This document shows positions 3,001-31,860 of a stretch of 49,018 bases of DNA, piece by piece. Where the stretch lies: contig DASUHB010000025.1 of assembly GCA_036273715.1 (NCBI GenBank), positions 1-49,018 on the forward strand. The letters run 5' to 3'. The notes below the pieces were generated by a model, which did no database searches, had not been told where the DNA came from, and worked only from the letters and a program-made list of their open reading frames with translations. The position numbers and the translations under genes are program-made. This stretch comes from Gemmatimonadaceae bacterium (GTDB taxonomy: Bacteria; Gemmatimonadota; Gemmatimonadetes; Gemmatimonadales; Gemmatimonadaceae). Within the stretch, counting starts at the first letter, position 1, and each line of letters opens with the position of its first letter.

Positions 3001-5198
3001 CACCGGCGCCGGTCCAGAATTACACACCGTACGTCGTGCGCCACGAGCCGGGACAGTCGTCGTTCGAGCACGAGCACACGCGGATCAGGACGCATCTCGT
3101 GTGCGGCATTGCCGAGAACGACGCGGTCAAGATTTCGGTGCTGCGGCTGACTAACGATGATGGCCGGCGGCGCAGGATCATCCTCACCGCCTACACCGAG
3201 CTCACGCTCGGCGTGCTCCGCGAGCACACGCAACATCAGGTGCGAACGTCGTTCGAGGCGGACCTGGGGGCGATCTTCGCGCAGAATACGTTCGATCCCG
3301 AGTTCGCCGAATGGGTGGCGTTCACGGCGGTGAGCGAACGCGTGATCGGTCACACCGGCGACCGGAGGGAGTTCCTCGGGCGGAACGGCGCGCCCAATGC
3401 TCCGGCGGCACTCGCGCGCGCCGCGACGGGTAGCGGATCCGCGAGCGTCCGGCGGAACCTCCTCGGCGCCGCGGGCGTGGGTCTCGATCCGTGCGCCGCG
3501 CTCCAATGCGAAATCGACATCGGGCCCGGAGAAACGCGAGACGTGGTCGTCATCCTGGGCGCGGCGCCGCGCCGCGCCGAGGCCCGGGAGCTCGCGGCGC
3601 GATACGGTGACGTTAGGCGAGCACAGTCGGCGGTGGCGCAGACCGTTGCCGGTTGGGCGGAACGGCTTTCGGTGATCACCGTGCGCACACCGGAACCGAC
3701 CTTCGATGCGATGCTCAACCGATGGACGTTGTACCAGGCGCTCTCGTGTCGCATGTGGGCGCGCTCGGCGCTGTATCAGAGCGGCGGAGCCTACGGGTTC
3801 CGCGACCAGCTGCAGGACGTGATGGCGTTCGTCTATGCGGCGCCGGAGTTGGCGCGGGAACACATCGTTCGCGCCGCGGGGCGCCAGTTCATCGAGGGAG
3901 ATGTGCAGCACTGGTGGCACCCGGGCAGCGGACGCGGTGTGCGAACGCGGTTCTCCGACGACATGGCGTGGCTTCCATACGTCGTCGATCACTACGTGCG
4001 CGTCACCGGCGACGCGTCGGTGCTCGATGCATCAGCGCCGTTTCTCACGATGCGGGCGCTCGAGCCGGGCGAGCACGAGGCATACGAGGTGCCGCAGGTG
4101 CCGGGGGAGACCGGAACGGTGTACGAGCACTGCATCCGCGCCTTACGGAAGGCGTGCACGGCCGGCGCGCACGGGCTGCCGCTGATCGGGGGCGGCGATT
4201 GGAACGACGGCATGAACCGTGTGGGGGTAGAAGGGCGCGGCGAGAGCGTCTGGCTGGCGTGGTTTCTCATCGCCACGCTGCGCGCGTTTGCGCCGGTCGC
4301 GGCCGCGCGTGGCGACGCCGCGCTCGCGGACGAATTCCTGACGCAGGCCGGCGCGTACGCGCGCGCCGTCGAGTCAGACGGCTGGGACGGCGAATGGTAC
4401 CGCCGCGCCTACTTCGACGATGGCACGCCCTTGGGCTCCGCGTTAGGCGACGAATGCCGCATCGATTCGTTGGGCCAGAGCTGGAGCGTGATCTCGGCCG
4501 CCGGCGATCAAGAGCGGCAGTCGCGCGCGATGCGCTCGCTGGATGCGCATCTGGTGCGCGACGACGCGCGGCTCGTGCTGCTGCTCACTCCGCCGTTCGA
4601 CCACACGCCTCACGATCCCGGCTACATCAAGGGCTACCTGCCGGGCGTCCGCGAAAACGGCGGTCAGTATACGCACGCGGCGCTCTGGGCGGCACTCGCA
4701 ACGGCGCGACGCGGCGACGGTGATCGCGCGTTCGAGATGTTTCAGATGCTCAACCCCCTCACCCGCTCGCGAACGCCGACCGACGTCGACCGATACAAGG
4801 TCGAGCCCTACGTCGTAGCCGCCGATATTTATGCGGCCGAGGGACACGTTGGGCGCGGCGGATGGACGTGGTACACCGGCTCCGCGAGCTGGATGTATCG
4901 CGTGGGCGTGGAGGCGATTCTCGGTGTCGTGAAGCAGGGTGCGATGCTCTCGATACACCCCTGCCTTCCGCGCGATTGGCGGCAGTATGAAATTCGGTAT
5001 CGCTATGGACGAAGTCTGTACATCATCGCCGTGCATGTCACAGACGACATCGCGGCCGCCGTTGCCATCAGCGTCGACGGCCAGGTGCTCGACACACCGG
5101 CGATCCCGTTGGTGGATGATGGCGCGCAGCATGACGTGACGGTGCAGCTGGGCCGCGCCGGGGCCGCTTTCGTCGAAAAACCCCTAATGACGCAATGA
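3..5198 (+). CDS. Cyclic beta-1,2-glucan synthase-like protein, C-terminal part (5' end outside window)
   Basis: The reading frame is open to the left window edge, so only the C-terminal part of a very large protein is seen (about 1730 residues). Residues about 90-360 look like the glycoamylase-like region found in the middle of NdvB/Cgs proteins (GYQQSTHSLDGSYYD, then MAHHIGMG). Two beta-sandwich plus helical segments of the GH94 phosphorylase type follow. The C-terminal (alpha/alpha)6 domain carries GGGDWNDGM near residue 1397, the motif that holds the GH94 catalytic aspartate. In the family, the missing N-terminal part is a membrane-bound GT84 glucosyltransferase that builds beta-1,2-glucan from UDP-glucose, and the C-terminal phosphorylase trims chain length. 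The stop overlaps the next gene by ATGA. The substrate linkage is inferred from domain order; another GH94 glycan phosphorylase fusion is possible. Confidence 0.8.
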   Translation, partial: AALVDAAAPLSAAAAPLGRALGALGAGALPDEAAAPVTEWINWSLRRIAEHEALRGALGAGDSDDVPRGRVTLRYLSARSPAAASLVARLDVLARRASAYATSMDFRFLFDPARRLFAIGYQQSTHSLDGSYYDLLASEARLASFIAVAKNEVPVEHWFRLGRTLTHAAGATALVSWSGSMFEYLMPVLVMESLPFTLLDQTYRGAVHRQIAYGGARGVPWGVSESAYNLRDRNLTYQYRAFGVPDLALKRGLARDLVVAPYATVLAMMVNPHEALANLRTLERGGALGSYGFRDALDYSRPEPGRRYAVVRTFMAHHIGMGLVALTNVLTADVWQRRFHADPMMRSASLLLHERIPRRLELQDTQPSRSDEARSASDVERAAVREFDTPDTVQPHVALLGRAPYTIMVSHAGGGYSRFEDLAVTRWRADGTRDHSGQFCYLKDIARGAVWSAAHQPVCVEADRYKAVLATDRVTFHRADGDIETRTEIGVVPDDAAEVRRVVVTNNSDATRDVELTSYGEIVLAPPDADRAHPAFGNLFIETEWHAWCSAITAIRRPRSANERPLWCVHVVDTGAERVGLTSCETDRARFLGRGRSVRDPVALDVDGPLSGTTGAVLDPIFALRTRVRLAPGQSASVAFTTLVATSRERAFELAGRYHDPHAAQRALDLAWTSAQVELNELDITPADAASFQELAGSLFYACPELRAPQSELRRNNGSQARLWANGISGDWPIVLATIDSADGLPTLRQLFAAHHFWRRHGMTVDLVVLNEQPHTYLQALNEQITATLFASSDSSITDRPGGAFVRRRDLLSAADLLMLRATARVHVPCDGRSLGRIIEASKPADEREEDDGGPFLTPLRASGRRAAQAVRPLWDLGSRLRSDGKASAALVSDVSSHAVDVRGGGPSRPLDTNGFGGIAHDGAYQMSVYGDHVPPAPWSNVIANPHGGFIVTERGGGFSWAGSSYLFRLTPWHNDPVSDPVGDAIYLQDDETGDVWSATPAPVQNYTPYVVRHEPGQSSFEHEHTRIRTHLVCGIAENDAVKISVLRLTNDDGRRRRIILTAYTELTLGVLREHTQHQVRTSFEADLGAIFAQNTFDPEFAEWVAFTAVSERVIGHTGDRREFLGRNGAPNAPAALARAATGSGSASVRRNLLGAAGVGLDPCAALQCEIDIGPGETRDVVVILGAAPRRAEARELAARYGDVRRAQSAVAQTVAGWAERLSVITVRTPEPTFDAMLNRWTLYQALSCRMWARSALYQSGGAYGFRDQLQDVMAFVYAAPELAREHIVRAAGRQFIEGDVQHWWHPGSGRGVRTRFSDDMAWLPYVVDHYVRVTGDASVLDASAPFLTMRALEPGEHEAYEVPQVPGETGTVYEHCIRALRKACTAGAHGLPLIGGGDWNDGMNRVGVEGRGESVWLAWFLIATLRAFAPVAAARGDAALADEFLTQAGAYARAVESDGWDGEWYRRAYFDDGTPLGSALGDECRIDSLGQSWSVISAAGDQERQSRAMRSLDAHLVRDDARLVLLLTPPFDHTPHDPGYIKGYLPGVRENGGQYTHAALWAALATARRGDGDRAFEMFQMLNPLTRSRTPTDVDRYKVEPYVVAADIYAAEGHVGRGGWTWYTGSASWMYRVGVEAILGVVKQGAMLSIHPCLPRDWRQYEIRYRYGRSLYIIAVHVTDDIAAAVAISVDGQVLDTPAIPLVDDGAQHDVTVQLGRAGAAFVEKPLMTQ

Positions 5199-10471: not shown

Positions 10472-11636
10472 CCGCCTAACGGAAACCCCGGCCGCGCGGC
10501 GCGATCGCGCGTTCATGCGCCGGGCGATCGACCTGGCCAAACGCGGCTGGGGCCAGACGGCGCCGAATCCCATGGTCGGCGCCGTCGTCGTTCGCGGCGA
10601 CCACATCGTCGGCGAAGGCTGGCACGCGCGGTTCGGCGAACCGCACGCCGAGGCCGCGGCACTCGACGCCGCGGGACCGCTGGCCAAAGGCGCCACCGTA
10701 TACGTGTCGCTCGAGCCGTGCGCGCACCAAGGCAAGACGCCGCCGTGCACGCGCGCCCTGATCGAGGCCGGCGTGTCGCGCGTCGTGATCGGCGCCCTGG
10801 ACCCGAACCCGAAAGCGTCGGGCGGCGCGTCGCGCCTGCGCGATGCCGGCATCGACGTCGTTACAGGAATCGAGAAGCGCCGAGCGCTCGAGGTCGACCC
10901 CGCGTTTTTCTTTTCGTTCGGCGCGAACCGCCCGTGGATCACGCTCAAGCTGGCGCTCACGATCGATGGCGCCATCGCCGACGCCGCCGGCTGCTCGCGC
11001 TGGATCACCGGCCGCCGCGCTCGCGCCGCCGCGCACGAACTGCGCGCCGGCCACGACGCGGTGGCGGTCGGCATCGGCACGGTGCTGTCCGACAACCCAC
11101 AGCTCACAGTTCGGGACGCACCCGCGCCGCGCATTTCCCCGCGCCGCGTTATCTTCGACCGCCACGCACGCACGCCGCTCGACTCGGCGCTCGTTCGCAC
11201 CGCGCGCGACGTCCCGGTAATGGTCGTGGCCGAGCATCCCCCGGCCCGCGCTGCGCGCGCGTTGGAGGCGGCCGGGGTCACGGTGCTGCGGACGAGCTCG
11301 CTATATAATGGATTGGAACATCTGAAGTCGGAGGGTATCCGATCGCTGCTTGTCGAGGGCGGAGCGCGACTTACGGGTGCGCTCATGGAGCAATCTCTGA
11401 TCGACCGTTTGGTTATCTTTCAGGGTCCTATCGTACTCGGCTCGGGAGCGCAGAATGCGTTCGCGTTCACGAACGGAACACCCATTGGACAGGCGCACCG
11501 GTTTCGAGTGCTCGAACGACGCGCATTCGGCGACGACAGCATGATCGTGTGCAGGCGGACTACAGGCGGACAACGCCGGACAGAGCCTGAGAACAGCGAA
11601 AGGCGGACAAGACGGACAAGGCCGGACAGAGCTTGA
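10461..11636 (+). CDS. ribD: Bifunctional riboflavin deaminase/reductase
   Basis: RibD catalyses deamination and then side-chain reduction of the pyrimidine intermediate of riboflavin synthesis. The N-terminal deaminase half shows APNPMVGAVVV, the zinc/catalytic HAEAAAL (His62, Glu64) and PCAHQGKTPPCT with the zinc cysteines. The reductase half starts around TLKLALTIDGAIADA. The chosen start is TTG; ATG at 10515 is the alternative. The last 25 or so residues (arginine-rich, after MIVCRR) are encoded by the repeat arm that fills the ribD/ribE gap and have no counterpart in normal RibD. The 3' third (about 11290-11550) is visibly less GC-rich than the rest. Confidence 0.93.
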   Translation: MRSDRLTETPAARRDRAFMRRAIDLAKRGWGQTAPNPMVGAVVVRGDHIVGEGWHARFGEPHAEAAALDAAGPLAKGATVYVSLEPCAHQGKTPPCTRALIEAGVSRVVIGALDPNPKASGGASRLRDAGIDVVTGIEKRRALEVDPAFFFSFGANRPWITLKLALTIDGAIADAAGCSRWITGRRARAAAHELRAGHDAVAVGIGTVLSDNPQLTVRDAPAPRISPRRVIFDRHARTPLDSALVRTARDVPVMVVAEHPPARAARALEAAGVTVLRTSSLYNGLEHLKSEGIRSLLVEGGARLTGALMEQSLIDRLVIFQGPIVLGSGAQNAFAFTNGTPIGQAHRFRVLERRAFGDDSMIVCRRTTGGQRRTEPENSERRTRRTRPDRA

Positions 11637-11640
11637 GAAT
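11553..11640. repeat. GTCCGGC-type array, locus A, left arm (GGCGGACA orientation)
   Basis: Degenerate tandem units of the form GGCGGACAA / GCCGGACAG run from inside the ribD 3' end to its stop codon. The arm is an imperfect inverted copy of the right arm at 11788-11870: both contain the order GGCGGACAACGCCGGACA, GAGAACAGCGA, GGACAAGGCCGGACAGAGC. The core between the arms (about 147 bases) is less GC-rich, has a small hairpin CGGGCG-TAAG-CGCCCG, and does not resemble the cores of the other loci. Confidence 0.85.
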
Positions 11641-11787
11641 CCCCGGTAGGCAGACGACGCGCAGCCGCGCCGGGATCAACAAAGACGCTGCTTGAGGTAA
11701 GGCAGAGAAAGCGCGGGCGTAAGCGCCCGAGAAATAACTCCTGGAACAATCACTTATGTACTCCGTGTTGCATACGTCTAAGCTTTT

Positions 11788-11870
11788 TCTCCGGCTCTGT
11801 CCGGCCTTGTCCGGCTTCAGTCCACGTGTCGCTGTTCTCCGGCTTTGTCCGGCGTTGTCCGCCTTCAGTC
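11788..11870. repeat. GTCCGGC-type array, locus A, right arm (TGTCCGGC orientation)
   Basis: Inverted partner of the arm at 11553-11640, made of TGTCCGGCCT, TGTCCGGCTT and TGTCCGCCTTCAG units. It ends nine bases before the ribE GTG start, so it occupies the place where a Shine-Dalgarno would be expected; none is visible. An in-frame GTG at 11826 inside the arm would add 18 array-encoded residues to RibE. Confidence 0.85.
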
Positions 11871-11879
11871 GGCCCTAAC

Positions 11880-12482
11880 GTGTTCACCGGCATCATCTCC
11901 GACATTGGCACCATCGAACGGGTAGCGGACGTTCCGGCTGGCCGCGAGCTGCGCGTGCGCTCCGCGTTTGTCCGCCTGTCGGGAGGTGAGAGCATCGCGC
12001 TCAATGGCGCGTGCCTAACGGTACGCGAGCATGGTGACGGGTGGTTCAGCGTGGCGGCCGTGGTCACGACGCTCGAGCGCACGGAGATCGGCTCGTGGGA
12101 GCCGGGGACGCGCGTCAACCTCGAGCGTGCGCTCCGGGCGGGCGACAGGTTAGGCGGGCATCTCGTGCAGGGACACGTGGACGATACCGGCACCGTCGTC
12201 GGCGCGCGCACCGAGGGCGACGCGCGGCTGGTGGACGTCCGCCTTCCGCGGGAGCTGGCCGACCTCGTGGTGCCGCACGGATCGATTGCGCTGGACGGCG
12301 TGAGCCTTACCGTGAACGACATGCCGGCGGTCGATGTGGTGCAGGTGTCGCTCATCGACTACACGCTGCGCCACACCACGCTGGGCGATCTCGCGCCTGG
12401 GCGGCGCGTGCACGTCGAAGCGGACGTGATCGGCAAGTACGTGCAGCGGCTCGTGGCCCCATACCTCGCGGCGGTGCGCTGA
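11880..12482 (+). CDS. ribE: Riboflavin synthase alpha subunit
   Basis: Joins two molecules of dimethylribityllumazine into riboflavin plus pyrimidinedione. The protein (200 residues) is the expected tandem of two lumazine-binding barrels: FTGIISDIGTIE opens the first and LGGHLVQGHVDDTG leads into the second. The GTG start is chosen because the family nearly always begins MFTGI; the reading frame continues upstream only through repeat-array sequence. The stop is two bases before the ribBA ATG. Confidence 0.95.
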   Translation: MFTGIISDIGTIERVADVPAGRELRVRSAFVRLSGGESIALNGACLTVREHGDGWFSVAAVVTTLERTEIGSWEPGTRVNLERALRAGDRLGGHLVQGHVDDTGTVVGARTEGDARLVDVRLPRELADLVVPHGSIALDGVSLTVNDMPAVDVVQVSLIDYTLRHTTLGDLAPGRRVHVEADVIGKYVQRLVAPYLAAVR

Positions 12483-18583: not shown

Positions 18584-19389
18584 CCGGGCCCGATCGCGCC
18601 CCGACGGCGATCGCGCCCGCGCTCTCGTGGAGCGCGCGCATCGCCGTGTTCACGCGCATGTTCGCCGTGCAGGGCTCGTGGAACTACGAGACCATGCTCG
18701 GCCCGGGCATCGGGTTTTGCGCCGAGCCGGCGCTGCGCGAGCTGCCGGGCGGTCCGGACGGTCCGGCCTACAAGGACGCGCTCGCGCGCGAGACGCGATA
18801 CTTCAACGCGCACCCGTATCTCGCGGCGGTGGCGATCGGCGCGCTCGTGCGCGCCGAGCTCGAAGGCAGGCCGGCGGCGCAGATCGAACGCTTTCGCACC
18901 GCGATGTGCGGTCCGTTGGGCAGCCTCGGGGACCGGCTCGTGTGGGCGGGATGGCTTCCGTTCTGCTCGCTCGTCGCGCTGCTCGCGTTCGGCTTGCGGG
19001 CATCGCCGTTGGTCATCGTGATTCTGTTTCTCGGCTTGTACAACGCCGGGCACGTTGCGCTGCGCGCCTGGGGCGTGAACACGGGATGGCGCGGCGGTCT
19101 GCGCGTCGCCGCATCGCTCGGCAGCCCCTTGCTGCAGCGCGGGCCGCAGTATCTGGCGCGCGCCGTGCTGTTCCTGGCCGGACTGGCGCTCCCGTTAGCC
19201 ATTGCCCGCGTGATCGGCCGGCGCGGGTTGGAGATTCCGTCGCACGACTGGACGATCGCGTTGCCGCTCGCGGCGCTCTTCGCGATCGTCCTGGCCGCGC
19301 TTCTCGTCCGCCTGCCCGCGCGCGTAGAAGGATGGCGCGCCGCGCTGGTGGTGCTCGCCGTACTGATCCTCATCTCGATCGCCAGATGA
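18580..19389 (+). CDS. PTS mannose/fructose/sorbose-family EIID
   Basis: A 269-residue membrane subunit unique to mannose-type PTS. FAVQGSWNYETMLGPGIGFC is the hallmark, followed by FNAHPYLAAVAIGALV and several C-terminal membrane helices. Together with EIIC it moves hexose across the inner membrane. Sugar specificity cannot be read from the sequence. The GTG start overlaps the EIIC stop; its TGA overlaps the ATG of ptsH. Confidence 0.92.
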   Translation: MTGPDRAPTAIAPALSWSARIAVFTRMFAVQGSWNYETMLGPGIGFCAEPALRELPGGPDGPAYKDALARETRYFNAHPYLAAVAIGALVRAELEGRPAAQIERFRTAMCGPLGSLGDRLVWAGWLPFCSLVALLAFGLRASPLVIVILFLGLYNAGHVALRAWGVNTGWRGGLRVAASLGSPLLQRGPQYLARAVLFLAGLALPLAIARVIGRRGLEIPSHDWTIALPLAALFAIVLAALLVRLPARVEGWRAALVVLAVLILISIAR

Positions 19390-19655
19390 TCATGGAACGC
19401 TCCGTTAGGATCGTGAACAAGAACGGCCTGCACGCGCGCCCCGCGGCGGAACTGGTGAAGACCGCGTCGAAGTTCCAGAGCGAGATCACGATGGTGCGCG
19501 ACGATCTCGAGGTGAACGGCAAGAGCATCATGGGCGTGATGATGCTGGCGGCCGAGTGCGGCGCCGAGCTGGTGGTGCGCGCCGATGGGCCGGACGCGGA
19601 GCAGGCGGTGCAGGCGATCGCAGATTTGGTGGCGCGCAAATTCGGCGAGCAATGA
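19386..19655 (+). CDS. ptsH: HPr phosphocarrier protein
   Basis: An 89-residue HPr. NGLHARPAAELVKTASKF contains the PEP-dependent phosphorylation site (His16, classical His15) and NGKSIMGVMMLA the HprK target serine (Ser47, classical Ser46). Both sites intact means both EI-driven transport phosphorylation and HprK regulation are possible. The ATG overlaps the EIID stop; a second ATG at 19392 would shorten the protein by two residues. The left arm of repeat locus B begins directly after the stop codon. Confidence 0.96.
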   Translation: MIMERSVRIVNKNGLHARPAAELVKTASKFQSEITMVRDDLEVNGKSIMGVMMLAAECGAELVVRADGPDAEQAVQAIADLVARKFGEQ

Positions 19656-19772
19656 AGCCGGACAGTACGGACGGAGCCGGATACGGCTGAAGGCGGACAG
19701 GGCGGACACGCCGGACACGACCGGACGAAAAGCTGAAGGCGGACAAGACGGGACACGCCGGAGACGACCGGG
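19656..19772. repeat. GTCCGGC-type array, locus B, left arm
   Basis: Units such as GCCGGACA, GGCGGACA and CTGAAGGCGGACA run from the base after the ptsH stop. The block ACCGGACGAAAAGCTGAAGG matches the inverted copies in the right arm closely. The roughly 130-base core that follows (to about 19904) is AT-richer, with no convincing gene in it, and unrelated to the cores of loci A and D. Confidence 0.85.
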
Positions 19773-19904
19773 CGAACTCTTGAGATTTTGTCGACTGATT
19801 TCTCGGGAAATAGAAATGGATATCAATTCCGTTAGAACAAAACTCAATTCGTTGGCGGCATTCGGGTGTGGGGCTGTGAAAGCTCACGTCCAGGCGTGCC
19901 TAGT

Positions 19905-20135
19905 CGTGTCACGCCGTGTTCGCCTTCAATCTTGTCCGCCTTTAGCCGCTTATCCGGCCGTGTCTGGCTCTGTCGGTTTTGTCCGCCTTCAGCTTTCTCG
20001 TCCGGCCGTATCCGGCGCTGTCCGTTTTGTCCGCCTTCAGCTTTTCGTCCGGCCGTGTCCGGCTTTGTCCGGACGTGTCCGCCTTCAACTTTTCGTCCGG
20101 CCGTGTCCGGCCGTGTCCCGCCGTGTCCGCCTGTA
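19905..20135. repeat. GTCCGGC-type array, locus B, right arm with three 48-bp tandem units
   Basis: The longest arm. On top of the roughly 10-base unit there is a higher-order repeat: three tandem copies of exactly 48 bases start at 19987, 20035 and 20083, each beginning CTTCAGCTTT or CTTCAACTTT and ending TGTCCGC. 48 bases is 16 codons, so copy changes keep frame. The last unit contains the probable GTG start of ptsI (20123). The arm is the inverted partner of 19656-19772. Confidence 0.88.
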
Positions 20136-21892
20136 AGCTGGACGGGATTCCCGCGTCGCCCGGCATCATTCTGGGCACGGTGCACCTCCTCTTGTGGGAG
20201 GTGCCCGAGGTGCCGCAGCGCATCGTCGGTGACGACGAGATCGAGCCGGAGATCGCGCGCTTTCACGCGACGCTGGAGCGCGCGCGCGAGCGGCTGCGCC
20301 GGGTGCGTGCGCGTGCAGCGGGGCAGGCCGGCGAAGAAGAAGCGCGCATCTTCGACGCGCAGCTCTTCATCCTCGAGGACACGGAGCTCATCGGGCGCGT
20401 GGAGGGGCTGGTCAGGCAGAATCTGAGCGCCGAGTCGGCGTTCGAGATCACCATGTTGGAGTGGCGGCACCATTTCGCGCGGCACGCGTCGCCGATGATG
20501 CGGGAGCGCGTGGGCGACATCACCGACGTGCAGATCCGCGTCTTGTCGCTGCTGTTAGGCCTGCCCGATCACGACCCGGTGGACCTGCCCAAGGGCGCGA
20601 ACGCGATCCTGGTGACGCACGATCTGACGCCGAGCCTGACAGTGCAGCTGGATCGGGACGCGATCGCGGCGATCGCGACCGACGCCGGCACGCACGTGTC
20701 GCACGTGGCGATCCTCGCCCGATCGTTAGGCATCCCGGCGGTGGTCGGGCTGCGCCGCGCCACCCAGACCTTGCGGGGCGGCGAGCGCGCCATCCTCGAC
20801 GGCGGCGCGGGCACGCTCGTGATCGAGCCCAGCGACGAGGAGATCTCGGCCTTCAAAGAGCGCTCGCGGCGCGAGGTGGCCATGGCCGAGCAGCTCGCGG
20901 GACTCACGGGCGTCGAGCCCGTCACGCGCGACGGCATTCGCCTAACGCTGCGCGCGAACGTCGACCTGCCCGACGAAGCGTCGGCGGCCGTCACCAGCGG
21001 CGCCGACGGCGTCGGGCTCATGCGCACCGAATTCCTCATGGTGGGCCGCACCACGCTGCCCGACGAGGAGGAGCAGTACCGCGCCTATCGGCGCGTCGTG
21101 CAGGCGTTCGCGCACCATCCCGTCGTCATCCGCACCTTCGACATCGGCGGCGACAAACTCCCCGTCGGCGGATATCCCACCGAGGCGAATCCCTTCCTCG
21201 GCTGGCGCGCCATCCGGATGTGCCTCGACGAACAGGACATCTTCCTGGTCCAACTGCGCGCGCTCCTCCGGGCCGCCACGCACGGCGACCTGCGCATCAT
21301 GCTGCCGCTCGTCGTGAGCGTCGACGAAGTGCGCCGCACGCGCGCCCTCATCGCGCAAGCGGCCGCCGAGCTCGCCCAACGCGGGGTCCCGTACCGCGAC
21401 GACGTCCCGCTCGGCGTGATGGTCGAAACGCCGGCGGCGGCGATCGCAGCGGACACATTCGCCGGCGACGCGTCGTTCTTCAGCATCGGGACCAACGATC
21501 TCACCCAGTACACGCTCGCCGTCGACCGCGGGAACGCGAACATCGCCAACCGCTTCACGCCGCTGCACCCCGGCGTACTGCGGTTGATTTACCGCACCGT
21601 GCGCATTGGCGCCGAGCACGGCATCGATGTCACCGTGTGCGGCGAGATGGCCTCGCAACCGCTCATGGCCTTCGCACTCATCGGACTCGGCGTGCGCCAG
21701 CTGAGCGTGGCGCCGCGCGCCGTGCCGCTCGTGAAACGCCTCGTCTGCGCGATCACCGTGGCCGATGCCGAGCAGGCCGCCAACGAGGCGCTGGCCGCAC
21801 GCACGGCGCACGATGCCCAACGCATCCTCGCGCACCACCTCACGGAAACCGCCGCAGGCGATCCATTCCTGCGCGATGGAAGCGTTGCGTAA
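20123..21892 (+). CDS. ptsI: PTS enzyme I (PEP-protein phosphotransferase)
   Basis: EI takes phosphate from phosphoenolpyruvate and passes it to HPr. The body is complete (589 residues, family about 575). LDGIPASPGIILG starts the N-terminal domain, GTHVSHVAILARSLGIPAV holds the phospho-histidine, GLMRTEFLM and GVMVETPAAA belong to the PEP barrel, and CGEMAS is near the C-terminal catalytic cysteine. The start is uncertain: the frame is open back through the repeat array to about 19979, and the GTG at 20123, in the last 48-bp unit, is the closest start to the conserved region. No ordinary Shine-Dalgarno is visible there. Confidence 0.93.
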   Translation: MSACKLDGIPASPGIILGTVHLLLWEVPEVPQRIVGDDEIEPEIARFHATLERARERLRRVRARAAGQAGEEEARIFDAQLFILEDTELIGRVEGLVRQNLSAESAFEITMLEWRHHFARHASPMMRERVGDITDVQIRVLSLLLGLPDHDPVDLPKGANAILVTHDLTPSLTVQLDRDAIAAIATDAGTHVSHVAILARSLGIPAVVGLRRATQTLRGGERAILDGGAGTLVIEPSDEEISAFKERSRREVAMAEQLAGLTGVEPVTRDGIRLTLRANVDLPDEASAAVTSGADGVGLMRTEFLMVGRTTLPDEEEQYRAYRRVVQAFAHHPVVIRTFDIGGDKLPVGGYPTEANPFLGWRAIRMCLDEQDIFLVQLRALLRAATHGDLRIMLPLVVSVDEVRRTRALIAQAAAELAQRGVPYRDDVPLGVMVETPAAAIAADTFAGDASFFSIGTNDLTQYTLAVDRGNANIANRFTPLHPGVLRLIYRTVRIGAEHGIDVTVCGEMASQPLMAFALIGLGVRQLSVAPRAVPLVKRLVCAITVADAEQAANEALAARTAHDAQRILAHHLTETAAGDPFLRDGSVA

Positions 21893-21925
21893 GCCTGAAC
21901 GGACGGCCTGTCCCCTCCATTAAGA

Positions 21926-22025
21926 CGTCCGGCCTTGTCCGGCCTTGTCCGGCTGGTCCGCTCTTTTGAGTCCTCCGGCCGTCTCCGGCGTTGTCGGACC
22001 TGTCCGCCTTCCGGGTTGTCCGACT
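21926..22025. repeat. GTCCGGC-type array, locus C (single arm) before metK
   Basis: GTCCGGCCTT units in the same orientation as the right arms of the other loci, about 80 bases ahead of metK. No clear inverted left arm is left between ptsI and this block; only CTGAACGGACGGCCT at about 21896-21910 looks like a remnant. It may be a collapsed or one-armed version of the element. Confidence 0.8.
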
Positions 22026-26590: not shown

Positions 26591-26614
26591 GATTGAGCAT
26601 CGACAACTGAACTA

Positions 26615-26760
26615 CAGCGGTCGCGGGTTCCGGAAGCCGGTGCAACTCCGGCGCGGTCCCGCCACTGTAACGGGGAGAATCACTCCCGCGCTCTCGAGCC
26701 ACTGACTTTGGTTGGGAAGGCGAGCGCGGCGCCCCGAAGCCAGGAGACGCCTCGCGTCCG
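26615..26760 (+). ncRNA. Cobalamin riboswitch
   Basis: The leader before btuF contains GCCGGTGCAACTCCGGCGCG followed by GTCCCGCCACTGTAACGGGG, the conserved core of cobalamin riboswitches, and the B12 box GAAGCCAGGAGACGC at about 26736-26750. Binding of adenosylcobalamin or another cobalamin would regulate the downstream btuFCDB genes. Boundaries are approximate because the outer stem P1 was not folded by calculation. Confidence 0.9.
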
Positions 26761-26837
26761 CGCCACTCGATCAGACCCTCGGAAGAAGGGCTGGTGGCGA
26801 TGCGCGCGAGTTCCTGAAGCTCCCGCGTTTTTCCACT

Positions 26838-26864
26838 GGGCACTTCCCGCCGCGGGAGGTGCCC
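26838..26864 (+). promoter_or_regulatory. SD-sequestering hairpin (riboswitch expression platform)
   Basis: GGGCACTTCCCG (26838-26849) pairs with CGGGAGGTGCCC (26853-26864) over 12 bp with one G-U pair. The right half contains the Shine-Dalgarno GGGAGGT of btuF, whose GTG follows at 26868. This is the layout of a translational OFF switch: ligand-bound riboswitch permits the hairpin and hides the ribosome site. No U-run follows, so a transcription terminator is less likely. Confidence 0.8.
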
Positions 26865-29564: not shown

Positions 29565-31502
29565 GTGCGATTCGCCCCATTGCTCGCGACCCCGCTGGCA
29601 TGCGCCGCGCTGTCGTCCGTTAGTCACGCCCAACAGACCTCGCCGGACACGGCGGTCCTCGCCCCGGTGGTGGTGACCGCCACGCGCGTCGACGTGACCC
29701 CCGTCGCGCCGCTGGCGAGCACGACCGTCCTCACCGGCGCCGAGCTCCGCGCGCAAGGTATCTCGACGCTCGGCGATGCGCTCGCTTCCGTGCCCGGCGT
29801 GTTCGCGCCGCAGAGCGGCTCGTACGGCTCGCAGACGTCGCTCTTTCTGCGCGGCGGCGAGAGCGACTACACCGAGGTGCTTGTCGACGGCGTCCCGGTG
29901 AACGATCCCGGCGGCTTCCTCGACCTCGCCAACCTGACGACGGACAACATCGACCGGATCGAAATCGTGCGCGGCCCGACGAGCGTGCTCTACGGCTCCA
30001 ACGCGGTCACGGGCGTCATCCAGATTTTCACGCGGTCGGGGCAGGGGCCCGACCGGTTCACGTTAGGCGTGGACGGCGGCACCTACGGGACGTCCAACGC
30101 GAGCGTGTCCTACGCCGGCGGCTCGGACAAGATCAGCGGCTCGGCCTCCGTCGCGCGGCACCGCACCGATGGGATTTACGCGTTCAACAGCCAGAGCCGC
30201 AACGACATCTACAGCGGCGCGCTCCGCCTGGCGCCCGACGCGGCAACGTCGCTGCAGCTCGTCCTCCGCGACGAGGACGCCGGCGCGCACATCCCGACCG
30301 ATTTTTCCGGCGCCGTGGACGACAGCACCCAGTTCCACCTCGAGCGGCGGCTCCTGGCGTCGCTGGACGCGGATCGCCGCATCACCAACCGCCTAACGGC
30401 GCACGCCCTGTTCGCGGCCAGCGACGAGCACGAGCAGTCGGCGCAGATTCCCGACACGCCCGGCGCCGAATGCGATCTGTGCTACGATTCGCGCGCCGGC
30501 ATCTACCGCCGCTCGGTGGACGGCCGCCTCGACTTCACCGCCGCGCCGTGGGCAGCGCTCGCCGCCGGCGCCACGGCCGAGCAGCAGCGCGCGCGCGAAT
30601 CGGGCGCCGGCCCGCTGCAGCGCACGCTCCACGCCTACTACGCCCAAGCGTTAGGCAACGTCGGCAAGGCGTTTTCGTACACCGCCGGCGTGCGCGCCGA
30701 CGACAACAGCCAGTTCGGCACGTTCACCACGTATCGTCTCGCCGCCGGCTACGTGCTCCTGCCCGGCACGAGCCTCCACGCCTCGATCGGCAACGCGTTC
30801 AAGGAGCCGACGTTCGATCAGACGTCGTCGACGCTGTCCTTCGCGCGCGGAAACCCCGACCTGAAGCCCGAGCGGGCGCAAAGCTGGGAAGCCGGTGTGG
30901 CGCAGGATGTCGCGCACGGCGCGCTCGCCATCTCGGCGACGTATTTCGCCCAACGCTTCCGCGACATCATCCAGTACGACGGCGCGCCGCCTGACACGTC
31001 GCTGCCCAACTATTTCAACCTCACGTCCGCGATCGCGGATGGCCTCGAGTTGAGCGCGCGCACGGCGTCATGGCGCGGGCTCTCGCTCGCGGGCACCTAC
31101 ACCTGGCAGCACACCCGCGTCACCGACGCCGGCATCAATGGTGGCCCCACCGCCGAGTTCGTCGACGGCCAGCGGCTCCAGCGCCGCCCGACCAATCTCG
31201 CCAGTGCGACACTGGCCTATCGTCCGTCGCCGCGCGCCGCGCTCTTCGCCACCGCCGGCTACGTGGGCAACCGCGTGGACGTCGACTTCTTGAACTCGGT
31301 GCGCGTCGAGGCGCCATCGTACACGCTCTGGAATCTCGCCGGCGAGTTGACGATCATGGACGCGCACGGCGCGACGCCCGGCCTCACGTTCACGACGCGG
31401 ATCGCGAATGTGTTTGGCACGCGCTACGCTCCGATCTTCGGCTTCCGCGCACCAGGCATGGCGCTCGACGTCGGATTCCGCCTAACAGCCGGACACGACT
31501 GA
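29565..31502 (+). CDS. btuB: TonB-dependent cobalamin receptor
   Basis: An outer-membrane receptor of 645 residues. The signal peptide ends near SVSHAQQ; a TonB-box-like APVVVTATR follows; the plug shows LGDALASVPGVFAPQSG and IERIEIVRGP-like IDRIEIVRGPTSVLYGSNA; the rest is barrel. The GTG at 29565 is chosen (weak GAGG before it); a GTG at 29523 overlapping the btuD stop is an alternative. The C-terminus is odd: after the expected last strand (VGFRLT) it reads AGHD instead of an aromatic residue, and those codons belong to repeat locus D. Confidence 0.9.
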   Translation: MRFAPLLATPLACAALSSVSHAQQTSPDTAVLAPVVVTATRVDVTPVAPLASTTVLTGAELRAQGISTLGDALASVPGVFAPQSGSYGSQTSLFLRGGESDYTEVLVDGVPVNDPGGFLDLANLTTDNIDRIEIVRGPTSVLYGSNAVTGVIQIFTRSGQGPDRFTLGVDGGTYGTSNASVSYAGGSDKISGSASVARHRTDGIYAFNSQSRNDIYSGALRLAPDAATSLQLVLRDEDAGAHIPTDFSGAVDDSTQFHLERRLLASLDADRRITNRLTAHALFAASDEHEQSAQIPDTPGAECDLCYDSRAGIYRRSVDGRLDFTAAPWAALAAGATAEQQRARESGAGPLQRTLHAYYAQALGNVGKAFSYTAGVRADDNSQFGTFTTYRLAAGYVLLPGTSLHASIGNAFKEPTFDQTSSTLSFARGNPDLKPERAQSWEAGVAQDVAHGALAISATYFAQRFRDIIQYDGAPPDTSLPNYFNLTSAIADGLELSARTASWRGLSLAGTYTWQHTRVTDAGINGGPTAEFVDGQRLQRRPTNLASATLAYRPSPRAALFATAGYVGNRVDVDFLNSVRVEAPSYTLWNLAGELTIMDAHGATPGLTFTTRIANVFGTRYAPIFGFRAPGMALDVGFRLTAGHD

Positions 31503-31644
31503 AGGCGGACAACAGGCGGACAACAGGCGGACAAATCCGACAGGCGGACAAAACGGACAAATCCGGACAATGCCGGATTCACAGCGTAAGGCGACAGGCG
31601 GACAACTCCGGACAATGCCGGAGTACAGCGTAAGGCGGATAAGG
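31487..31644. repeat. GTCCGGC-type array, locus D, left arm
   Basis: Starts inside the last codons of btuB and includes its stop codon. Units are GGCGGACAAC, GGCGGACAAA and CCGGACAATG. A 45-base higher-order repeat is seen: TCCGGACAATGCCGGA occurs at 31562 and again at 31607. It is the inverted partner of 31736-31860. Confidence 0.87.
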
Positions 31645-31735
31645 CACGCACGAAAGTAGAGACGAAAGGAGGTTGAGGAATTTAGTTCTCCTAGCTCGTA
31701 CGAGCGTTATCGGGCTTCGTCTGCCCTCCGCGCTT

Positions 31736-31860
31736 GCTGTTATCCGGCATTGTCCGGCTTTGTCCGTTTTGTCCGCCTGTCGCCGTTACTCCGGCATTGT
31801 CCGGCTTTGTCCGCCTGTCGGTTTTGTCCGTCTGTCGGCTTTGTCCGGTCTTCTCCGACT
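31736..31860. repeat. GTCCGGC-type array, locus D, right arm
   Basis: Units TCCGGCATTGTCCGGCTTTG and TGTCCGCCTGTCG, inverted relative to the left arm with the same locus-specific variants (GGCATT, and CGCCGTTACTCC against GGAGTACAGCG). It ends 13 bases before the recO ATG. The 91-base core between the arms has a strong Shine-Dalgarno-like AAAGGAGGT (31665) and a 12-base palindrome GCTCGTACGAGC (31694). Confidence 0.87.

Follow-up and report, generated by a model that had tools for sequence, protein, structure and literature searches.

The closest described counterparts of the repeat considered here are the GGGAATC / GGGGA(C/T)T heptamer arrays of Xanthomonas and Nostoc, which, according to the accessible text of the original report, are mostly intergenic (Rehm et al. 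2015, PMC4692102). The G-rich strand of these arrays is the sense strand near stop codons, some of which are overlapped by the array, and the antisense strand before start codons. For Xanthomonas, convergent inverted pairs are given in 70 and 75 cases, array length varies between species, and in the same portion of the text no role in gene regulation was identifiable in that genus (PMC4692102). In Mycobacterium tuberculosis, the tandem repeats at rnc-fpg1 (ETR-F/VNTR3239, which the source discusses with MIRU) widen a junction of a few bases to ~280-360 bp; the array ends at the downstream start codon, and its length correlates with expression of the downstream gene (PMC2734929, as far as the available text goes). 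REP and BIME elements, as portrayed in the accessible parts of two further papers, are intergenic palindromes of small size (20-40 bp for REPs), some of which lie 15 nt or less from a stop codon and can lower translation there (PMC12306157; PMC3733652).

Here we describe an insert between ptsH and ptsI of a Gemmatimonadaceae bacterium (genome G000), which may best be read as a variant, specific to its lineage, of the inverted G-rich gene-end arrays of Xanthomonas. The nearest named contigs are from Gemmatimonadaceae, at 75% identity or less. The window, i.e. the whole stretch of DNA analysed, comprises 49,018 nt of this genome, and five congeners (G001-G005) were used for comparison; all are draft assemblies. 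Genes were called with a home-made codon model trained on 13 long window frames, Pfam tests covered ptsH and ptsI, and the remaining gene names are labels given by eye. A search of the open-licence PMC literature found no description of these repeats in Gemmatimonadota.

Layout of the insert between ptsH and ptsI

An insert of ~470 bp (19656-20132), composed of a CGGACA array, an AT-richer core and a TGTCCG array, separates ptsH from ptsI. It begins directly after the stop codon of ptsH (19386-19655, forward strand; stop TGA at 19653-19655), a gene identified by the codon model and by Pfam PTS-HPr (E 2.7e-33), and it ends just inside ptsI (20123-21892, forward strand), which is identified by the Pfam PEP-utilisers N, mobile and C domains and by the codon model, its start being taken from the relatives as well. 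The left arm (19656-19776) is CGGACA-rich and contains ~2-3 degenerate units (TRF 19686-19776, period 47, 88%), and the core (19777-19885) has a GC content of 0.45-0.49 in 100-bp windows. The TGTCCG-rich right arm (19886-20132), recognised from TRF, unit identities and inverted pairs I1-I11, holds the three 48-bp units that the initial annotation had placed upstream of ptsI, at 19987, 20035 and 20083. This part of the annotation was borne out, as the spacing is exactly 48 bp and TRF reports a period of 48 within 19932-20132 (3.8 copies, 84-86% matches). Between units 2 and 3, 43 of 48 bases agree; a small indel offsets unit 1, which has ungapped identities to the other two of 24/48 and 26/48, and a weak fourth unit starts at 19939 (34/48). 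A sub-repeat of ~10 bp, TCCGGCNNTG, recurs inside each 48-bp unit, and the window contains 6 occurrences of the unit-like pattern, where 100 shuffles contain 0.00 on average.

The left arm is the inverted counterpart of the 48-bp array, with paired arms of 66 nt that are 86% complementary and a further pairing of 46 nt at 89%. The RNA of positions 19650-20140 has a predicted folding energy of -262.8 kcal/mol, where 100 shuffles average -188.75 (z -9.51) and none was as stable. No sigma-70-like promoter was found in 19300-20300. At the gathering threshold, Rfam gave nothing at the array, its matches in the window being a cobalamin riboswitch and two tRNAs. The riboswitch (26609-26768, 73.2 bits) is followed by a gene predicted at 26859, and a TonB-receptor-like gene (29565-31502, labelled by eye) lies ~2.8 kb on.

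The junction between ptsH and ptsI was then compared across relatives. Of 41 genomes searched for EI, 40 contain a match, in some cases only to a fragment or a related PEP-utilising enzyme. A junction script was given 34 loci, of which 11 were left unread (L031, L042, L043, L047, L048, L049, L051, L060, L061, L063 and L064). In 20 of the 21 other loci for which both genes were readable by the script, 14-28 nt separate the ptsH stop from the EI motif GIPASPG downstream; the exception, L057, has 219 nt from stop to GIPASPG, a reading of distance only. The two loci with inserts (L030, that of G000 itself, and L140 of G005) stand outside these 21. In the five cases read by eye (G002, G003, G018, G020 and L060), the stop and start codons share bases, as TAGTG or TGATG. 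Since the junction is tight in nearly all readable relatives, the ptsH-ptsI insert is considered to be derived. The same junction of G005 carries an insert of ~310 bp with CGGACA/TGTCCG motifs, which ends before a retained TAGTG, and in G004, where the flank is 95% identical, CGGACA and TGTCCG arrays of different content follow ptsH up to the contig end; no match was found for the first part of the G004 ptsI. The insert at this junction thus differs among all three genomes.

MIRU are direct repeats that are not known to have an inverted partner, and Supply and co-workers are said to have found in 1997 that they enter stop-start overlaps; REPs have a RAYT (Y1 transposase) partner. In common with MIRU-type elements, the present array lies in a tight gene junction and is absent from nearly all readable relatives, but its complementary left arm sets it apart from a purely direct repeat. 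It resembles the rnc-fpg1 array in being a lineage-specific tandem array that widens a tight junction and ends at the downstream start, whereas the available text on rnc-fpg1 describes direct repeats and does not mention an inverted partner (PMC2734929). Unlike the small palindromes of the REP class, each arm is here a variable array of tandem units, ~120 bp long on the left and ~247 bp on the right, and no Y1 match was found in G004 or G005. With the Rehm-type arrays, as far as the accessible text describes them, the repeat shares a tandem, intergenic and strand-polarised arrangement, often in inverted pairs, and a length that varies between species. It departs from them in its unit, which is of ~10 bp (CGGACA) nested in 48 bp and not the heptamer GGGNATC or GGGGA(C/T)T, in arms of hundreds of bases, in a fixed phase at the stop-codon join and in its position within the tight ptsH-ptsI junction. 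Inspected by eye for the runs expected of a G-quadruplex, the CGGACA unit contains GG but lacks GGG. As the heptamer unit is absent, the repeat is regarded as a variant that works like the Rehm-type arrays and not as a member of that family; nor, the defining feature of each having been looked for and found missing, is it assigned to MIRU or REP.

The predicted start of ptsI

The initial annotation had pointed out that the frame through the units is open into ptsI, and had proposed that a change in copy number would alter the leader or the N-terminus of EI. The ptsI frame is indeed open upstream as far as the last stop at 19943. However, all three forward frames are open across 19987-20130, so that the open ptsI frame is no evidence of coding; among 2000 base shuffles of the array, all three forward frames were open in 600 and none in 26. 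The codon model picks GTG 20123, within the last repeat, as the start of ptsI, and Pfam places the beginning of the EI N-terminal domain at the G of GIPASPG, i.e. after the array. Read by eye, the EI of relatives begins 5-6 codons ahead of GIPASPG, and a start at GTG 20123 yields MSACKLDGIPASPG, one codon more than in G018 (MDRKIQGIPASPG). These predictions argue against a repeat-encoded N-terminus, and on the codon model EI is likely to start at GTG 20123, with a start codon taken from the last repeat. With this predicted start, a change in unit number would alter the leader and its structure and not the EI protein; as the start lies in the last repeat, its use may still depend on the array.

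By eye, no purine-rich Shine-Dalgarno sequence is present upstream of GTG 20123, whereas the final ptsH codons of G002 and G018 contain GGGGAG. A simple Shine-Dalgarno score is 4/6 for G000 and equally for three relatives, and the missing site in G000 is therefore to be taken as a reading by eye. The start codon has a predicted openness of 0.13 when the transcript reads through and 0.21 when transcription starts in the core, compared with 0.54 for the G002 junction.

A dispersed repeat family of variable length

The pattern TCCGGCNNTGTCCGGC was searched in 179 genomes of the family and gave 34 matches in G000, 15 in G004, 19 in G005 and 10 in G052, with 0-3 matches each in the other 175 and 4 matches in total for the reversed control. 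The CGGACA/TGTCCG repeat is therefore dispersed in G000 and in two of its five congeners (G004 and G005). G052 belongs to another genus (g32) and has the pattern at, for example, C10:25371-25471; its two listed genus mates have none.

In the stretches fetched, 36 clusters were found in G000 (among the matches listed), 24 in G004 and 18 in G005; the G000 catalogue covers the fetched places among the matches listed (125 counted) rather than the whole genome, and some stretches fall below the cluster threshold. What had been annotated as a minisatellite at ptsI is thus a tandem array adjoining the gene, as described, but it is half of an inverted, dispersed insert and belongs to one of these 36 clusters. 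Both orientations of the motif are present in 23/36, 12/24 and 15/18 clusters of G000 (among the matches listed), G004 and G005, respectively, and 13 of the 36 listed G000 clusters have the motif in one orientation only. The order runs from CGGACA to TGTCCG and not the reverse in 23 vs 0 cases in G000 (among the matches listed), 12 vs 0 in G004 and 17 vs 3 in G005. Summed over the three genomes, the orientation changes stand at 52 vs 3, which is the strand polarity of the Rehm-type arrays. The clusters spare predicted genes, with 0/36 inside a gene in G000 (among the matches listed), 1/24 in G004 and 0/18 in G005.

The join to the upstream gene has a fixed phase. GGCGGAC, with at most one mismatch, lies 0-2 nt past the stop at 23/39 stop-facing edges in G000 (among the matches listed), 17/25 in G004 and 9/22 in G005, against 0/31 (G000, among the matches listed), 0/15 and 1/13 start-facing edges; one G004 edge (L228) is counted twice in these figures, duplicates being absent from the 47 abutting edges used for stop codons. 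The stop is TAA in 25 of those 47 genes abutting an element compared with 10 of 102 other gene ends. In yajQ, the last residues FGNYR are unchanged and the stop TAA is joined to GGCGGACA in G000 and G004, an end that recurs at stop codons, while the repeat-free yajQ genes of G001, G002 and G003 stop with TAG, TGA and TAG. The TAA is not always new, since recG of G001, which lacks the repeat, also uses it. Folding is uneven across the family: z is below -3 in 19 of 36 G000 clusters (among the matches listed; 20 shuffles each), and some one-sided clusters fold no better than shuffles (L151, z +3.2; L204, z +2.1; 20 shuffles each). L151 (G000:C52, 1744-1995) is a one-sided array with 12 TGTCCG-type matches; it lacks an inverted counterpart, ends 14 nt from a stop and folds worse than its shuffles.

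Three sister copies detected by TRF lie in the window. Both arms are present between the ribD-like and ribE-like genes (11547-11880) and between the TonB-receptor-like and recO-like genes (31488-31860), and only the TGTCCG orientation was detected between ptsI and the metK-like gene (21893-22007), where the 3' end of ptsI is altered; apart from ptsI these names are labels by eye. In G000, array-encoded residues (window 11452-11636) take the place of the ribD-like C-terminus found in G002 and G005, and the ptsI 3' end differs from that of G002, an old-end-like stretch being located past the ptsI-metK array. Damage to these coding ends is more in keeping with a tolerated repeat than with a designed switch. 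Growth of the array from a native TTGTCCG word was considered and set aside: it fits ptsI-metK, where the ptsI 3' end of G002 has GGGTTGTCCGAC, and the word is absent from the ptsH-ptsI junctions of relatives that were printed. The ribD-ribE junction of G005 (L171, G005:C68, ~4560-4960) holds a long palindrome of unrelated sequence, with arms containing AAGGGATAACGAAAGTGATCGTTC.

Orthologous inserts of G000 were compared with 10 of G004 and 3 of G005, and all 13 differ in length, from 378 vs 380 bp, a trivial difference of 2 bp, to 326 vs 197 bp. The expectation that array length is not fixed held in these draft assemblies, and the constant copy number in all relatives that would have told against the annotation was not seen among G000, G004 and G005. 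Sequence identity over aligned columns is 75-98.7%. The upper value belongs to the insert at 31554-31857, which is more similar to its counterpart L225 than are its 95% identical flanks, showing that not every copy changes fast.

Origin and possible consequences of the arrays

Could the array be an in-frame coding minisatellite, with a copy number that changes the EI N-terminus or tunes EI expression? The ptsI frame open back to 19943 and the varying array lengths between congeners agree with this, as does the tandem array before Mycobacterium tuberculosis fpg1, for which the accessible text gives a correlation with expression (PMC2734929). Yet all three forward frames are open, the EI domain starts after the array, relatives lack any such extension and the array forms a single arm of an inverted repeat that is dispersed in the genome, which makes a coding minisatellite very improbable; tuning of the leader without a change in protein may occur and is part of the preferred reading too. 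An assembly artefact in repeat DNA is scarcely credible, as same-motif inserts occur at ptsH-ptsI in three separate genomes and at other orthologous junctions, even though the draft genomes consist of 81 to ~750 contigs and G004 contigs end near the array and inside ptsI, leaving unit numbers uncertain.

A MITE-like element that has ends like AAGGCGGACA ... TGTCCGCCTT, is mobilised in trans by a transposase and inserts at stop codons or close to them would account for the defined end phase and TAA enrichment at the joins, and for the yajQ site, which is empty in G001, G002 and G003 and in G000 and G004 has the insert directly behind a last codon that has not changed. Moreover, in a single case, that of the G005 ptsH-ptsI insert, the flanking GCTAATG and GCTAGTG differ at one position and may represent a 7-bp target duplication. 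Such an element is nevertheless unlikely, because the four copies in the window have cores that, by eye, seem unrelated, the TAA of recG in G001 occurs without a repeat, and the Y1 transposase (PF01797), not supported as the mobiliser, matched in one of the six genus genomes, in G000 and with an internal stop, and in none of G001-G005 (incomplete genomes), the repeat-bearing G004 and G005 included. More doubtful still is a stem-loop under selection to terminate transcription or to stabilise mRNA, a role that has been proposed for REP-type palindromes. Elements do lie directly after stop codons, part of the copies have strong stems, and in the G000 stretches, among the matches listed, convergent junctions make up 8/33 of those with an element and 5/65 of those without. 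Against this, an intrinsic terminator (short GC stem and U-tract) was represented in 19300-20300 by one weak site where shuffles led to an expectation of 0.9, a terminator between ptsH and ptsI would cut the operon, 5 of the 33 element junctions (G000, among the matches listed) are divergent, and the coding ends of ribD and ptsI are damaged.

We favour, as fairly probable, the reading in which a lineage-specific inverted insert, with the array as its downstream arm, uncouples ptsI from ptsH, akin to the inverted arrays of Xanthomonas and without a change in protein. Judged from sequence, the insert is two largely complementary arrays around a core, with similar clusters dispersed in the genome and lengths that vary at orthologous sites. 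In the ptsH-ptsI transcript the arms would pair into a long stem-loop beginning at the ptsH stop, and ribosomes would hardly pass from ptsH to ptsI, unlike at overlapping stop/start junctions. Translational coupling is most efficient at small distance, and predicted structure just past the upstream stop correlates with weaker coupling (PMC12548453, a review, in its accessible part). The ~470-nt separation and the stem-loop should largely abolish it here, and ptsI is probably uncoupled from ptsH by the insert. EI would then be translated from the weak, repeat-derived GTG 20123, behind a leader without an obvious Shine-Dalgarno sequence. Gain or loss of units would change the stem and the leader, and perhaps the EI:HPr ratio, but not the EI protein, and the repeat family is probably largely neutral or selfish, being tolerated where reading frames are spared.

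A similar layout, built from other units, was read in loci of other Gemmatimonadaceae. G021 has inverted arrays of (GGGACTC)n ... (GAGTCCC)n and (CCACGCT)n between genes (L167, 10213-10368 and 11345-11428), with an array directly 3' of the stop of a mutase-like gene, and in G019 the unit GGGCGTAT lies directly 3' of the stop of a leucine-dehydrogenase-like gene. The units of G020 and G002 are GGCGGAGGAC and TTGGTGG/CCACCAA, respectively, and that of G007, GGGAATC, is the unit given for Xanthomonas in the accessible text (PMC4692102). At three G007 places among the matches listed (C2, C13 and C46), plus-strand arrays are followed by minus-strand ones within 100 bases. Three GGGANTC in a row were matched in 12 of 179 genomes, with 429 matches in G021, 120 in G007, 45 in G010, 40 in G132 and 0 in G000-G005; the reversed control gave 9 in G052 and 2 in G084. 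For G052, G010 and G132 the evidence is by pattern count only.

Some G021 arrays (CCACGCT, GCTGCGTG) are C-rich or mixed on the left, contrary to the polarity rule, and long inverted repeats are equally numerous in family and control loci (8 in 410 kb from 70 family loci; 8 in 468 kb from 74 control loci), which argues against the claim that such repeats are special to Gemmatimonadaceae. The inverted repeats of the control loci include short palindromes and two that are themselves inverted tandem arrays, of AT-rich units that are TTAAGA-like in L091 (Omnitrophica, 35-253) and CACTAATG-like in L094 (Opitutia, 1396-1489). In a 6-mer scan, the 99 family loci yielded 37 hits, of which 18 fall inside predicted genes, the 74 control loci yielded 4, and three block shuffles of the family loci had none; as the scan yields false positives in GC-rich coding DNA, the examples given are restricted to those read as arrays. 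In view of the inverted-repeat count and the polarity breaks in G021, the case for a wider pattern is one of examples and not of rate. It is tentatively suggested that Gemmatimonadaceae share a stop-anchored pair of inverted tandem arrays, each lineage with its own unit, built or rewritten by an unrecognised process and sometimes placed inside operons such as ptsHI. The process might be, for example, stop-anchored template switching, or selection for palindromy alone, whatever the sequence.

Overall, what began as a minisatellite upstream of ptsI becomes a testable case of repeats reshaping an operon, in which a tight ptsH-ptsI junction has been opened by an array expected to form a hairpin, and ptsI seems to borrow its start codon from the repeat. 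The comparison suggests that the strand-polarised, inverted stop-codon arrays of Xanthomonas recur in Gemmatimonadaceae with different units, and it makes the origin and upkeep of such arrays accessible to comparison.
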